Origin: Nitrospirota bacterium | Lineage (GTDB): Bacteria; Nitrospirota; Nitrospiria; Nitrospirales; Nitrospiraceae | DNA: 34,256 bases | Direction of reading: 5' to 3' | NCBI GenBank assembly: GCA_020027965.1 | Contig: JAHRHE010000052.1 | Coordinates: forward strand, 1 to 34,256 | Part shown: positions 1 to 5,002 of the stretch, one piece after another | How positions within the stretch are numbered: the stretch's first letter is position 1 | Layout of the letters: every line of letters begins with the position of its first letter | The notes under the pieces: generated by a model | Database searches by the model: none | Seen by the model: only the letters and a program-made list of their open reading frames with translations | Told to the model about the DNA's origin: nothing | Program-made: the position numbers and the translations under genes

Positions 1-1109
1 AGCACCTTGGGACGCAGGTCTGCCGGGACCGTCAGACGAGACCCCGTCTGGGCGAAGTATCCGTCTATCCTCGGCGATGGCCAGAGCCGGGCGAGCCGGC
101 GCCACACGGGCACGGCCCTGCAGCGATCCACGAAACGGATGCACCGCTCATGCAGTCCCATCGTATGTCGGTAGTATTGCTGCATGAACTGCTCGACGGC
201 CAGCAGGTGCGGTTGGTCACGGAACCCGAACTGGGACGCGAGCCGGACCTGCTCATCGAACGAGAGAATCTCCTGGGCCATGTGGGCCTGCAGATGCAGA
301 AACGCCCGGACCCGCCAGAGAAATTCCCGGGCCTCGACCAAGGCCACGTAATCCGGCCGAGAGAGGATCCCCCGGTCAGTGAGCTCCTGGAGAGTCCCGG
401 CGTGGTACCTGGCCATGCCGACCCACTGCAGCACGTGTAGGTCCCTGAGTCCCCCCTTGCTCTTCTTCACGTTGGGCTCCAGGAGATAGACGGTCTCGCC
501 GAACTTCTCATACTCCCGGCGCCGCTCCTCGAGCTTCAGGTCGATGAAGCGATCCGTTCCCCGTGATACCACGCGATGCTGGTAACGTCGCTGGAACTCC
601 TGAAAGAGATCGGGACTTCCGCCCAGGAACCGCGCTTCCATCATCGATGTCCTGACGGTCAGGTCCGTGGAGGCCAGATCCAGACAGTCCTGAATCGTGC
701 GCACGCTGTGGCCGACCTGGAAGCCAAGATCCCAGAGGTGATGCAGGACGTATCGTGACAGTGGGGCGGCAAGAGGCCCCGCGTTCGCCCGGACCAGGAA
801 CATGATGTCAATGTCGGAGTACGGGGCCAGCTCCCGGCGGCCGTATCCACCCAAGGCCACGACGCAGCAGTTGCGGGAACCCAACGCCGCCTCAGGCGCT
901 TCGGATCCCTGCAGGGCACTCCGGTAGCGGCTGACGATCAGCCCATCCACCATCTCCGACAGGGCCGCTATTGTCTCCGCCCCCGACGCTCCATCCATCA
1001 GTCGCCGGTGCAACAGCTCGCGCTGTGCAGCGAGTGTCGCGGTCGCGCACCCGAGGCCGATTACCTGCATCTGGCCGAGTGCCACCTGGCTGTTAGAATC
1101 CGGCTTCAC
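1..1109 (-). CDS. glnD: PII uridylyltransferase / uridylyl-removing enzyme GlnD (N-terminal part, runs off the window)
   Basis: This enzyme uridylylates and deuridylylates PII proteins in response to glutamine. About 369 codons are visible and the C-terminal HD and ACT domains lie outside the window. The nucleotidyltransferase core is clear: GGYGRREL at about residues 87-94, then the catalytic pair in SDID (Asp99 and Asp101). The glutamate-rich middle region (GGLRDLHVLQW) follows, as in GlnD proteins. I chose the GTG at 1109 because an AGGCGAG-like ribosome site precedes it; the next in-frame ATG (1070) has none. An in-frame stop at 1139-1137 limits the upstream extent. It lies 69 bp downstream of glnB, whose product is its expected substrate. 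The family assignment is firm and the start is moderately sure. Confidence 0.9.
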   Translation of the reverse strand, partial: MKPDSNSQVALGQMQVIGLGCATATLAAQRELLHRRLMDGASGAETIAALSEMVDGLIVSRYRSALQGSEAPEAALGSRNCCVVALGGYGRRELAPYSDIDIMFLVRANAGPLAAPLSRYVLHHLWDLGFQVGHSVRTIQDCLDLASTDLTVRTSMMEARFLGGSPDLFQEFQRRYQHRVVSRGTDRFIDLKLEERRREYEKFGETVYLLEPNVKKSKGGLRDLHVLQWVGMARYHAGTLQELTDRGILSRPDYVALVEAREFLWRVRAFLHLQAHMAQEILSFDEQVRLASQFGFRDQPHLLAVEQFMQQYYRHTMGLHERCIRFVDRCRAVPVWRRLARLWPSPRIDGYFAQTGSRLTVPADLRPKV

Positions 1110-1178: not shown

Positions 1179-1633
<455 letters not shown>

Positions 1634-1646
1634 TTCGCTCTTTTCG

Positions 1647-2921
1647 CTAAGAGTATGCCCGCTCATTATGCTGACTCAGGTCCAAACCAATGGCCTCCTC
1701 TTCCGGAGAAATCCGCAGGCCGATCAAGCCATCGACCAGCTTGAGGATGCCGAATTGGGCGGCATGGCCGAAGAACAACCCGTCCGGCCCGCCAGGATTG
1801 ACGGCGCTGGAGGCCAAGAGGCCCGTGGCCAGCATCCCGACGACCCCGCCGACCCCGTGAATGCCGACGACGTCGAGCGTGTCATCATAGCCGATCTTTC
1901 CCTTCCACACAATGACGAGGTAGCAGGAAAGGCCGGCCGCGACGCCAACCAGCATGGCCGAAAGAGGCCCCACGTACCCGGCCCCCGCGGTGACGGTGGC
2001 CAGGCCGGCCACAGCTCCGCTGGCCACCCCGAGCGCGGTCGGTTTGCCCCGGTGGAGCCATTCCGCGACCATCCAGGCCAGGGCCGCCGTCGCGGCCGCC
2101 AAGTGGGTCGCCATGAGGGCCCCAACCGCGGTCGCGTTCGCCCCCAGCGCACTGCCGCCGTTGAATCCAAGCCATCCAAACCACAACAGTCCGGTTCCGA
2201 CCAGTACGAAGGGGAGATTATGTGGAGCCATGTAGTCGCTTCCATACCCTCGTCGCCGTCCCAGCACCAACGCGCAGGCCAGGGCGCTGACCCCCGCGCT
2301 CGTATGCACCACGGCTCCTCCGGCGAAATCCACCGCCCCAAGCCTGGCCAGCCATCCCCCAGCCCAGAGCCAATGTGCCAACGGAGAGTAGATAAACACA
2401 GACCACAGGACGGCAAAGAGCAGCAACGCACTGAACCGCATACGCTCGGCAAAGGCGCCCGTGATCAGAGCTGGCGTAAACGCCGCGAACATGAGTTGGA
2501 ACAACACGAAGGCTTGGTGGGGAATGGTGGGCCCATGACTCGGGTTGGGATCAAGCCCGACTCCGCTCAGGCCCGCCCAATCCAATCCCCCGATCACCCC
2601 GCCCCGATCCGGTCCGTAGACCAGGCTGTACCCCCACAGGACCCACATCACGGAGACGAGGCACAGAATCACGAAGCTGTGCATGATCGTGCCGAGCACG
2701 TTCTTGCTGCGCACCAACCCCCCATAGAACAGCGTCAGACCCGGTGCGATCATCGCCAGCACCAGCGCTGTCGAGGCCAGCACCCACGCGGTGTCTCCGC
2801 TATTGATCCTTGCCGGCCCCTGGGTTCCCGCCACGCCCTGAGCCCACACGCCGCTCGCCGTCAAGGCCACGAACATCACCGCCGGCAGGATTCCGATTCC
2901 GCACCGCGTGAGGATGGTCAC
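1647..2921 (-). CDS. amtB: Ammonium transporter AmtB with a shortened last helix
   Basis: Inner-membrane ammonium channel of the Amt/Mep/Rh family, 424 residues. A signal peptide (to about VWAQG, residue 29) precedes the helices. The pore residues are present: Asp198 in VDFAGG, the twin histidines His206 (VVHTSAG) and His355 (GIHGVGG). The C-terminal PII-contact tail GLRISPEEEAIGLDLSQHNERAY is also kept. The start is GTG at 2921 behind a perfect AAGGAGG. Between GHAAQFG (385-391) and ILKLVD (392-397) the sequence jumps directly, whereas family members carry roughly 20-25 more residues there, forming most of the last transmembrane helix. This looks like an in-frame internal deletion that could invert the tail or inactivate the protein. 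The gene precedes glnB. Confidence 0.93.
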   Translation of the reverse strand: MTILTRCGIGILPAVMFVALTASGVWAQGVAGTQGPARINSGDTAWVLASTALVLAMIAPGLTLFYGGLVRSKNVLGTIMHSFVILCLVSVMWVLWGYSLVYGPDRGGVIGGLDWAGLSGVGLDPNPSHGPTIPHQAFVLFQLMFAAFTPALITGAFAERMRFSALLLFAVLWSVFIYSPLAHWLWAGGWLARLGAVDFAGGAVVHTSAGVSALACALVLGRRRGYGSDYMAPHNLPFVLVGTGLLWFGWLGFNGGSALGANATAVGALMATHLAAATAALAWMVAEWLHRGKPTALGVASGAVAGLATVTAGAGYVGPLSAMLVGVAAGLSCYLVIVWKGKIGYDDTLDVVGIHGVGGVVGMLATGLLASSAVNPGGPDGLFFGHAAQFGILKLVDGLIGLRISPEEEAIGLDLSQHNERAYS

Positions 2922-2946: not shown

Positions 2947-3022
2947 CCAATAGCTCACAGCGAACAGCAAGAACCCCGGATGGTCTGGCTCGTTGCCATT
3001 CGCCATCCGCTACCCGCACGCG
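2947..3022. repeat. Facing degenerate heptamer arrays in the nadE-amtB spacer
   Basis: The minus-strand array at 2947-2971 contains GCTGTTC, GCTGTGA and GCTATTG. The plus-strand array at 2995-3022 contains GCCATTC, GCCATCC and GCTACCC. It has the same design as the array pair in the amtB-glnB spacer: 7-nt period, units starting GCY, two arms in opposite orientation. It fills most of the 101-bp gap after the nadE stop. Confidence 0.6.
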
Positions 3023-4801
3023 TTAAATGTTCCGGTACCCGTTCGTGATCGGCATCCGGCGGTCCTTGCCGAACGCCCGGTGAGTGATCTTGATCCCGAT
3101 CGGCGACTGCCGTCGCTTGTACTCGCTGCGATCCACCATCGCGATCACTCGTGCCACGGTGTCCCGGTCGAAGCCGAGCTCGACAATCTCATCTGGAGCG
3201 CGATCTTCCTCCACGTAGGCTTTCAGGATCGGGTCCAGGATGCTATAGGGCGGCAGGGTGTCCTCATCCTTCTGGTTGGGTCGGAGCTCGGCCGTCGGCG
3301 CTCGATCGAAGATCCGCTTGGGGATGACCGCCGTCCTGTCCCGGCGGTTCCGCAAACGCGCCAGCTCGTACACCATCGTCTTGGGCACGTCCTTGATCAC
3401 CGCGAACCCGCCCGCCATATCTCCATACAGCGTGGCGTATCCCACGCTCATTTCGCTCTTGTTGCCGGTCGTCAACACGAGGTACCCGAACTTGTTGGAG
3501 AGCGCCATCAGGATGTTGCCGCGAATCCTGGCCTGCAGGTTTTCTTCGGTCGTGTCGGTCGGCTGGCCTTCGAAGGTCGACGTAAGCGATCGCAGGTACG
3601 ACTTGAATACGGTCGTGATCGGAATGGTCCGGACCTGAATTCCCAACCGGCCGGCCAGGTCGCGCACATCGTCGCGGCTATCCGACGAGGTGTACGGTGA
3701 GGGCATGAACACGCCGTGGACATTCGCCGAGCCCAGCGCGTCCACGGCCACGACGGCGGTGAAGGCCGAATCAATGCCTCCGCTCAACCCGATCACGACC
3801 CGTTTGAACCCGTTCTTCCCGACATAGTCCCGGACGCCGACCACCAGCGCGCGATAGACTTCTTCCAAGGGCTCCAGCAGGACCGGCCCATCTGTGACCA
3901 CGCGCGTGCGTCGTCTTGGCACGAAGGTGTCCGAGAGCACGGTTCGCTCGATCATGGCCGCCGCTCTCCCGTGGAGCCACTTCTTGCGGCCGTGGGCCAA
4001 GCGAGCGCGCCCCACGGCGGCCATGTTCAGGTCAGCGATGAGCAGATCTTCTTCGAACGCCTTGCCGCGGAGGATCACCTCTCCGGTCTGATCCAGGACT
4101 AGGCTGTTGCCGTCGAACACCAGCTCGTCCTGTCCCCCCACCAGGTTCGTATAGGTCACGATCACGCCATGGTCCCTGGCGCGCGTCGCGAGCATCTGTT
4201 CGCGGAACCGGCTCTTCCCCATGTGGAACGGCGACGCGTTGATGTTCACGATCACTTCGGCTCCGGCGGCGGCTTGCACTCGAGTTGGTCCCTCGGGCAG
4301 CCAGATATCCTCGCAGATGTTCACGCCGAGCGCGGTGCCATTGAGCACGATGACCGGGATACGCCGACCAGAATGAAAATACCGGCTCTCATCGAACACT
4401 CCATAGTTCGGCAGGTACCACTTGCTGTATACCGTGACGAGCCGCCCATCGGCAATCACTGCGGCGGCATTGTGCAGTTCGTGGCGCCCGGCCGGGACCA
4501 CCATGGGATGGGCTGGCAGAGTATGAGAGATCCCGCCCTCTCCCACATACCCGACCACTGCCGCGATCCCGCGGCAGTGGCGGATTACTTCATCCAGCGC
4601 ACGCCGGTTCTCCAGGAGAAACCGTGGCTTGAGCAGGAGATCCTCCGGTGGATAGCCGGTGATCGCAAGTTCGGGAAAGGCCACCAGGTCCGCCTTGGCC
4701 TTCCGAGCCTCGCGCAACCAGCCGATGATGCGCCGGGCATTGCCGCTCACATCACCGACCGTGGCGTTCATCTGGACCATCGCGATGCGAAACGTCCGCA
4801 T
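3023..4801 (-). CDS. nadE: Glutamine-dependent NAD+ synthetase
   Basis: It catalyses the last step of NAD synthesis, amidating deamido-NAD with ammonia released from glutamine. It is a two-domain cytoplasmic protein of 592 residues. The N-terminal nitrilase-type amidase has the Glu-Lys-Cys triad: Glu44 (FPELAITGYPPEDL), Lys127 (YSKWYLPNYGVFDE) and Cys163 (GVNICEDIW). The synthetase domain has the PP-loop SGGIDS at 340-345. I placed the start at the ATG at 4801 (MRTFRIAMVQ), where the family begins; a 28-codon upstream extension would read through the terminator region and is unlikely. It is the first gene after the ANTAR-type leader, so expression is probably set by antitermination. A GC-rich hairpin (4827-4844) sits about 25 nt before the start. 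Confidence 0.96.
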   Translation of the reverse strand: MRTFRIAMVQMNATVGDVSGNARRIIGWLREARKAKADLVAFPELAITGYPPEDLLLKPRFLLENRRALDEVIRHCRGIAAVVGYVGEGGISHTLPAHPMVVPAGRHELHNAAAVIADGRLVTVYSKWYLPNYGVFDESRYFHSGRRIPVIVLNGTALGVNICEDIWLPEGPTRVQAAAGAEVIVNINASPFHMGKSRFREQMLATRARDHGVIVTYTNLVGGQDELVFDGNSLVLDQTGEVILRGKAFEEDLLIADLNMAAVGRARLAHGRKKWLHGRAAAMIERTVLSDTFVPRRRTRVVTDGPVLLEPLEEVYRALVVGVRDYVGKNGFKRVVIGLSGGIDSAFTAVVAVDALGSANVHGVFMPSPYTSSDSRDDVRDLAGRLGIQVRTIPITTVFKSYLRSLTSTFEGQPTDTTEENLQARIRGNILMALSNKFGYLVLTTGNKSEMSVGYATLYGDMAGGFAVIKDVPKTMVYELARLRNRRDRTAVIPKRIFDRAPTAELRPNQKDEDTLPPYSILDPILKAYVEEDRAPDEIVELGFDRDTVARVIAMVDRSEYKRRQSPIGIKITHRAFGKDRRMPITNGYRNI

Positions 4802-4857: not shown

Positions 4858-4898
4858 AAAAAAAAAACGCCCTCGATCCCATCATGGACGGAGGACGT
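4858..4898 (-). terminator. Strong intrinsic terminator in the nadE leader
   Basis: The stem pairs 4898-4886 with 4879-4867 (twelve pairs, including two G-U, with one C/C mismatch at 4890/4875), closes on the 6-nt loop 4885-4880, and is followed at once by ten U (4867-4858). It lies between a good promoter and the nadE start 57 bp further on, so it would block nadE transcription unless disrupted. Its 5' arm overlaps the candidate ANTAR hairpin P2. Confidence 0.88.
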
Positions 4899-4965
4899 CA
4901 TCGTCCGACTACCCGACTCTCACTGCCACACCGGAGGGAAACGTCGTTGTCTCCCGGTAGCTTAC
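4858..4965 (-). promoter_or_regulatory. Candidate ANTAR antitermination leader of the nadE-amtB-glnB-glnD block
   Basis: Transcription would start near 4965. Hairpin P1 pairs 4955-4949 with 4942-4936 (7 bp, one G-U) and closes on the hexaloop AACGAC (4948-4943). This loop has A at position 1 and G at position 4, the reported signature of ANTAR-bound loops. Hairpin P2 pairs 4906-4903 with 4896-4893 around GAUGAC (4902-4897), which has G4 but G instead of A at position 1. P2 uses bases that also form the 5' arm of the terminator (4898-4886), so the two folds exclude each other. The linker between P1 and P2 is about 20-30 nt, somewhat long. The neighbouring upstream gene encodes an ANTAR protein. 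Seen: the sequence and pairings. Inferred: binding and antitermination. Confidence 0.72.
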
Positions 4966-4972
4966 GGGGGCA

Positions 4973-5002
4973 CTTATAACAGTGCGCCGCCGCCTCTGTC
5001 AA
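4973..5002 (-). promoter_or_regulatory. Sigma-70-type promoter of the nadE leader
   Basis: A perfect -35 TTGACA (5002-4997), an 18-bp spacer and TATAAG (4978-4973, five of six matches) predict a start near 4965. The -35 box contains the TGA stop of the ANTAR gene, so regulator and target leader are packed without any spacer. The quality of both boxes suggests steady initiation, with control exercised at the terminator. Confidence 0.75.

Follow-up and report, generated by a model that had tools for sequence, protein, structure and literature searches.

A candidate ANTAR-type antitermination leader upstream of nadE-amtB-glnB-glnD and a predicted nitrogen-acquisition regulon in Nitrospirales

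The window analysed here is a stretch of 34,256 nt from a Nitrospirota bacterium (contig JAHRHE010000052.1). On its minus strand, a gene for a GAF-GAF-ANTAR regulator is followed by nadE, amtB, glnB and glnD, which are predicted to be co-transcribed (Table 1). The start of nadE at position 4801 is kept in relatives, and in close relatives the region from the ANTAR gene to nadE has an identical layout. The ANTAR domain scores 74.2 bits against a Pfam cut-off of 27.3, and a search of the window's own genome found no other gene with a Pfam ANTAR domain. Related 16-nt sequences (GCTGATGGCGTATGGC) lie in the nadE-amtB and amtB-glnB gaps (window positions 2995-3010 and 1606-1621, respectively); sequences of this type match four times in the window where 0.4 matches would be expected and are possibly a small repeat family.

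Table 1. Features of the nadE locus and its leader in the window
Feature	Position	Strand	Basis
GAF-GAF-ANTAR regulator gene, 426 aa	4999..6279	-	Pfam GAF (two), ANTAR 7e-21
nadE, glutamine-dependent NAD synthetase, first gene of the putatively controlled operon	3023..4801	-	Pfam CN_hydrolase and NAD_synthase
amtB, ammonium transporter	1647..2921	-	Pfam Ammonium_transp 9e-112
glnB, PII protein	1179..1517	-	NCBIfam P-II models just under equivalog cut-offs; tblastn 92%
glnD (PII uridylyltransferase), matched part, cut by window edge	1..1061	-	tblastn, 65% identity to glnD cluster
Promoter TTGACA-18-TATAAG	4973..5002	-	-35 overlaps regulator stop codon
ANTAR hairpin 1 (P1), loop AACGAC (A1, G4)	4936..4955	-	Folding, covariation
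Linker P1-P2, 29 nt	4907..4935	-	
ANTAR hairpin 2 (P2), loop GAUGAC (G1, G4)	4893..4906	-	Folding
Intrinsic terminator, 5' arm begins in P2	4858..4898	-	12-13 bp stem and ten U
Whole dual-hairpin element	4891..4958	-	Covariance models R1 and R2

The original prediction had placed a promoter here with the stop codon of the ANTAR gene inside its -35 box, and this is what is found: the -35 hexamer (5002-4997) includes the TGA stop (5001-4999) and is followed after an 18-nt spacer by the -10 hexamer (4978-4973). A consensus scan missed this promoter because its -10 ends in G. Downstream lies the proposed 7-bp hairpin P1 (GGGAGAC-AACGAC-GUUUCCC), which folded alone has an energy of -9.2 kcal/mol (z -3.9). 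The proposed second hairpin (GGAC-GAUGAC-GUCC) is also present and shares its 3' arm with an intrinsic terminator (-17.3 kcal/mol), whose stem of about 12-13 bp runs from position 4898 and ends in ten T (4867-4858). With this arm in common, P2 and the terminator are predicted to be mutually exclusive folds. When loop 2 of the window is folded alone, a fifth pair (G1-C6) closes to leave an AUGA tetraloop.

The folding energy of the whole leader is unexceptional (z -0.9), and the leader was therefore tested by comparison. A search for the ANTAR protein covered 119 genomes, the window's genome included, and two covariance models were built, R1 from 14 leaders and R2 from 110 aligned elements. R1 matches elements in 80 of the 119 genomes and R2 in 99, showing the conservation of both hairpins in relatives on which the prediction had been made to depend. 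The window element is found in its own genome with E values of 2.4e-13 (R1) and 4.6e-12 (R2), the window sequence being among those used to build the models. A third match in that genome (C146, E 0.39) was dismissed as chance, and weak matches in N. moscoviensis (L260, L261) and in genome G234 also look like chance.

In the alignment of 110 elements 98% of cells are paired and 65 cells carry two-sided changes, compared with 16.5+-3.1 in shuffled alignments (none of 500 shuffles reached 65); these figures are biased in favour of the structure, given that the sequences share ancestry and were aligned to fit the model. Two-sided changes occur at five pairs of hairpin 1. The stem of hairpin 2 shows almost no variation and contributes nothing here, so covariation backs P1 and says little on P2. 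RNAalifold, unprompted, predicts the identical two hairpins from the 110 elements. The evidence that the leader is real is thus its conservation, that is, the RNAalifold consensus and covariation above shuffles, and not its energy.

Position 4 is G in both loops of all 110 elements. Position 1 is A in 99 of the first loops and 84 of the second, so the family follows the rule of A1 and G4 hexaloops for ANTAR-target RNAs; the window copy follows it fully in loop 1, and in loop 2 has G4 with G1. This G1 had been flagged as a weak point and proves to be a minority form (25/110), occurring with C6, such that a tetraloop could close as in the window, in 16 elements. The linker, flagged as somewhat long, is clearly long: lengths run from 11 to 43 nt with a median of 25. 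A conserved helix was sought within the linkers, which as a group fold barely better than shuffled sequences (mean z -0.7); some sublineages can form one, but we make no claim for such a helix.

As in known ANTAR-target RNAs, helix covariation (in hairpin 1) is accompanied by a terminator that overlaps the second hairpin. A run of at least five T follows within 75 nt in 107 of the 110 elements, and the GUCC of P2 pairs with a downstream arm in 105 of these 107. Runs of at least seven T occur in 95 of 110 elements compared with 52 of 5000 random windows, and comparable promoters, mostly with spacers of 17-18, lie upstream of 83 of 110 elements compared with 40 of 5000 random windows. These data bear on the suggestion that the site, which lies directly after the ANTAR stop codon and carries a good intrinsic terminator, simply ends an aroB-ANTAR transcript, with nadE read from elsewhere. 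However, the terminator has its own promoter upstream, the promoter-hairpins-terminator unit also precedes urtABC, cyanase, amtB and other genes, and a plain terminator needs no two conserved hairpins before it. We therefore regard an ordinary terminator as extremely improbable.

Variant arrangements were also seen. Pairs of complete dual-hairpin/terminator units occur in tandem at L108:398-550, L126:409-561, L128:5469-5661, L129:5480-5632, L138:403-556 and L085:3187-3386, mostly before a family of ~300-aa lipoproteins (no Pfam match in the member tested), and resemble multi-terminator eut leaders. In G261, from another family of the same class, a differently arranged leader precedes nadE (L270:1420-1700), in which a G4 hairpin that overlaps one terminator is followed by another GGGACAAUGCUGUCC hairpin and another terminator.

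The element occurs with the regulator: it is present in 96 of 103 genomes with an ANTAR orthologue and in 3 of 16 without. No element was detected in seven ANTAR-bearing genomes, and the three ANTAR-negative genomes with an element are all incomplete assemblies. Restricting the count to genomes of 95% completeness or more gives 68 of 69 with ANTAR and 0 of 10 without (p 7.6e-12, relatedness ignored), as would be expected of an RNA target of the ANTAR protein. It could still be argued that the leader is some other attenuator, a riboswitch or leader peptide, beside which the ANTAR gene is a mere neighbour: adjacency is no proof by itself and, for an ANTAR target, this is a long linker. However, an Rfam search of the leader in two modes gave no matching family, and what is conserved is precisely a pair of G4 hexaloop hairpins with an overlapping terminator. 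Moreover, although many elements are distant from the ANTAR gene or sit on a different contig, they track its presence across genomes. An unrelated attenuator is thus very improbable, and the data favour an ANTAR-type leader.

We read 104 target regions, counting nitrogen genes within 5.4 kb downstream of the element, and found at least one such gene in 87 of them. The first recognised gene is nadE in 54 regions, a BBP2 porin in 21, another porin-like protein in 10, a lipoprotein of no known function in 8, cyanase in 3, amtB in 2, nrtA in 2 and others in 4. The target list comprises nadE-amtB-glnB-glnD, urtABC, cyanase, nrtABC, nirC-nirA and porins. Checks on representatives placed UrtA, UrtB and UrtC above curated cut-offs and identified cyanate lyase, a formate/nitrite transporter and a nitrate ABC ATPase; the NirA-like reductase falls under its equivalog cut-off. 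The second element of the window's genome (C55:4276-4333; L142, G000), with loops AACGGC and AAUGGC, has a promoter and a terminator of its own and precedes a cyanase with a putative signal peptide, which may be exported. In N. defluvii, elements precede nadE-OMP-amtB-glnB-glnD and, in tandem, nirC-cynS-nirA; in N. moscoviensis they precede nadE-OMP-amtB-glnB-glnD, nrtABC-cynS and amtB-amtB. Porin-like outer-membrane proteins (BBP2 and unassigned barrel families) come first in about 31 of the 104 regions (L077-L163), which suggests nitrogen-scarcity porins.

The neighbouring regulator had been proposed to turn on nadE and perhaps the ammonium uptake and PII genes. The link between regulator and element stands, given their co-occurrence. 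The place of nadE as the central target does not, with amtB in 63 of 104 regions and nadE in 54. In several genomes (including those with L020, L025 and L028) nadE follows the ANTAR gene without a leader and the element lies before a porin-amtB operon, so nadE, an enzyme that uses glutamine, is one member among several. As read from these gene lists, the targets form a putative nitrogen-acquisition regulon and not an NAD switch.

The regulator is predicted to fold as GAF, coiled coil, GAF, coiled coil and a three-helix ANTAR domain, with long helices joining the GAF domains (mean pLDDT 80.6, pTM 0.48), and 23 aligned orthologues are 70-89% identical. Of eight EutV RNA-contact residues (PMC8934654), five are identical in the aligned regulator (R368, K369, K375, E386 and M398), two are conservatively changed (R373, K to R; F390, Y to F) and one, EutV Arg168, is replaced by glutamine (Q394, R to Q). 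More distant GAF-GAF-ANTAR orthologues (46-49% identical) occur in another family of the phylum (G129, G137, G145 and G190), where R2 finds no element; their RNA targets may have diverged.

The first GAF domain is close to that of PtsP/EINtr (match to 3ci6, E 6e-25) and also resembles the GAF domain of NifA; the PtsP domain has been reported to bind glutamine in S. meliloti (PMC4848567). The switch could be real and the GAF domains nevertheless report a signal other than nitrogen, such as redox, light or a cyclic nucleotide, since GAF ligands are unreadable from sequence and the best fold matches of the tandem GAF region are cyclic-nucleotide and phytochrome proteins. Against this, GAF1 has PtsP and NifA domains as its close sequence relatives, the identifiable targets are mostly for nitrogen acquisition, and regulator and leader are absent from the amoA-bearing genomes examined in one genus, g6 (below). 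A non-nitrogen signal, which would alter only the sensory part of the model, is unlikely but has to be taken seriously.

Ammonia monooxygenase (PF02461) was found in 15 of the 119 genomes, nine of which belong to g6 and have neither the regulator nor elements. Eight ANTAR-bearing g6 genomes that we examined have elements and no PF02461. In eleven further ANTAR-negative g6 genomes, PF02461 is present in six and absent in five (which may be assembly gaps or non-oxidisers), and two gave element matches, one weak and apparently within coding sequence (G234) and one strong (G249). In the eleven ANTAR-negative g6 neighbourhoods that were read, G249 aside, the sequence upstream of nadE contains neither six consecutive T nor a P2 motif; ten of the eleven have the order nadE-glnB-glnA, lacking an intervening amtB, and what precedes nadE looks by eye like the end of aroB. 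The regulator-less g6 genomes are mostly ammonia oxidisers, and the leader and terminator before nadE are gone from them. Among the nine g6 genomes found first, eight encode just a divergent member of the Amt family and the ninth encodes none, in agreement with the Rh-type transporter that has been reported in clade A comammox (PMC6311188).

The amoA-bearing genome G249, in which no ANTAR gene was found, retains 55 aa of a GAF domain of the regulator, encoded upstream of nadE (L283:1178-1342), and an orphan element (L264) with a weakened terminator and no recognised target gene; both are likely relics of the lost system. We rejected the idea that every ammonia oxidiser lost it: six amoA-bearing g10 genomes keep the regulator, five of them with an element, so ammonia oxidation alone is not enough to eliminate it. 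For g6, a single loss within one lineage would be a sufficient explanation.

Taken together, the data make it very probable that the leader is an ANTAR-type antitermination switch over nadE-amtB-glnB-glnD, with a dispersed nitrogen-acquisition regulon under the same protein. By default, polymerase starting at the TTGACA-TATAAG promoter would form the terminator and stop before nadE. An active dimer of the regulator would bind both G4 hexaloop hairpins through its ANTAR domains and hold P2 closed, keeping the 3' arm of P2 from the terminator, and transcription would then enter the operon; the neighbouring protein can thus probably block the leader terminator, and the predicted direction of the response is read-through on activation. 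Dispersed nitrogen-acquisition genes, including the cyanase in the window's genome, would be controlled likewise. We infer that the signal is likely nitrogen status, perhaps glutamine or 2-oxoglutarate acting on the first GAF domain. The points against this model are the 29-nt linker, the replacement of EutV Arg168, the uninformative P2 stem, and the possible G1-C6 closure of loop 2 to a tetraloop, a form that EutV is thought to reject (PMC8934654). More tentatively, this soluble regulator, perhaps reading glutamine or 2-oxoglutarate through its PtsP-like GAF domain, could be the main nitrogen-status regulator of Nitrospirales, acting through linkers far beyond the EutV range and deleted, along with all of its RNA regulon, as one comammox lineage turned to a life on ammonia; we hold this broader picture to be possible, with the balance somewhat against it.

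ANTAR control of nitrogen genes is already known as a kind, because predictions made in 2012 covered PII and ammonium, urea and nitrate transporters (PMC3369931). What is new is the Nitrospirales-wide regulon, nadE and cyanase as targets, the long linker and the loss. In the literature searched we found no described ANTAR switch on nadE, as the original prediction had supposed, nor any description of an ANTAR system in Nitrospira, of cyanase targets, of an order-wide regulon or of its loss, and no paper on how Nitrospira regulate nitrogen uptake. The predicted switch recurs across the nitrite-oxidising Nitrospira group before ammonium, urea, cyanate, nitrite and other nitrogen genes. In soils, waters and treatment plants Nitrospira belong to the chief nitrite oxidisers, and their genetic manipulation is difficult; RNA-seq of cultured species offers a way to check the regulator, RNA code and gene list. 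What is seen in the ammonia-oxidising relatives ties a network of regulatory RNAs to an ecological change, and the length of the linker calls into question the spacing rule derived from EutV.

NasR of Klebsiella, which we take to sense nitrate through a NIT domain where GAF domains are found here, presumably has a single known target operon, nasF. In outline, that system resembles ours in its sensor-ANTAR protein, nitrogen assimilation target and leader terminator (PMC3369931, PMC7496416). The eut operon of Enterococcus faecalis, controlled by EutV (PMC3369931, PMC8934654), shares two A1/G4 hexaloop hairpins, the overlap of P2 with the terminator and most contact residues. In contrast, its regulator is a REC-ANTAR protein, the targets here are for nitrogen acquisition, and loop 2 here can have G1. 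The eut linkers are also short (5-12 nt compared with 11-43 nt here), and the 29 nt of the window lie outside that range; a 14-nt linker drastically cut EutV-dependent induction and a 20-nt extension abolished antitermination (PMC3369931, PMC8934654). The 2012 definition of the ANTAR-target family permits a variable linker (PMC3369931), so the long linker is a difference from eut and no exclusion from the wider family.

The nitrogen regulons that Ramesh et al. predicted in 2012 for Desulfotomaculum, Pelobacter and other bacteria (PMC3369931) likewise have dual hairpins and several units per genome, with PII, ammonium, urea and nitrate transporters, nitrite reductase and glutamine synthetase as targets. 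Their main text names no Nitrospira, nadE or cyanase, and a N. defluvii match in their Table S2 is possible. Unlike the regulons described there, one orthologous regulator and its regulon extend here across an order, and their loss is also seen. Finally, nadE beside glnB is known from PII-nadE gene islands, reported for Nitrospirae too (PMC7196632); there PII acts on the activity of the NadE enzyme, whereas here a transcriptional switch is predicted over those same genes.
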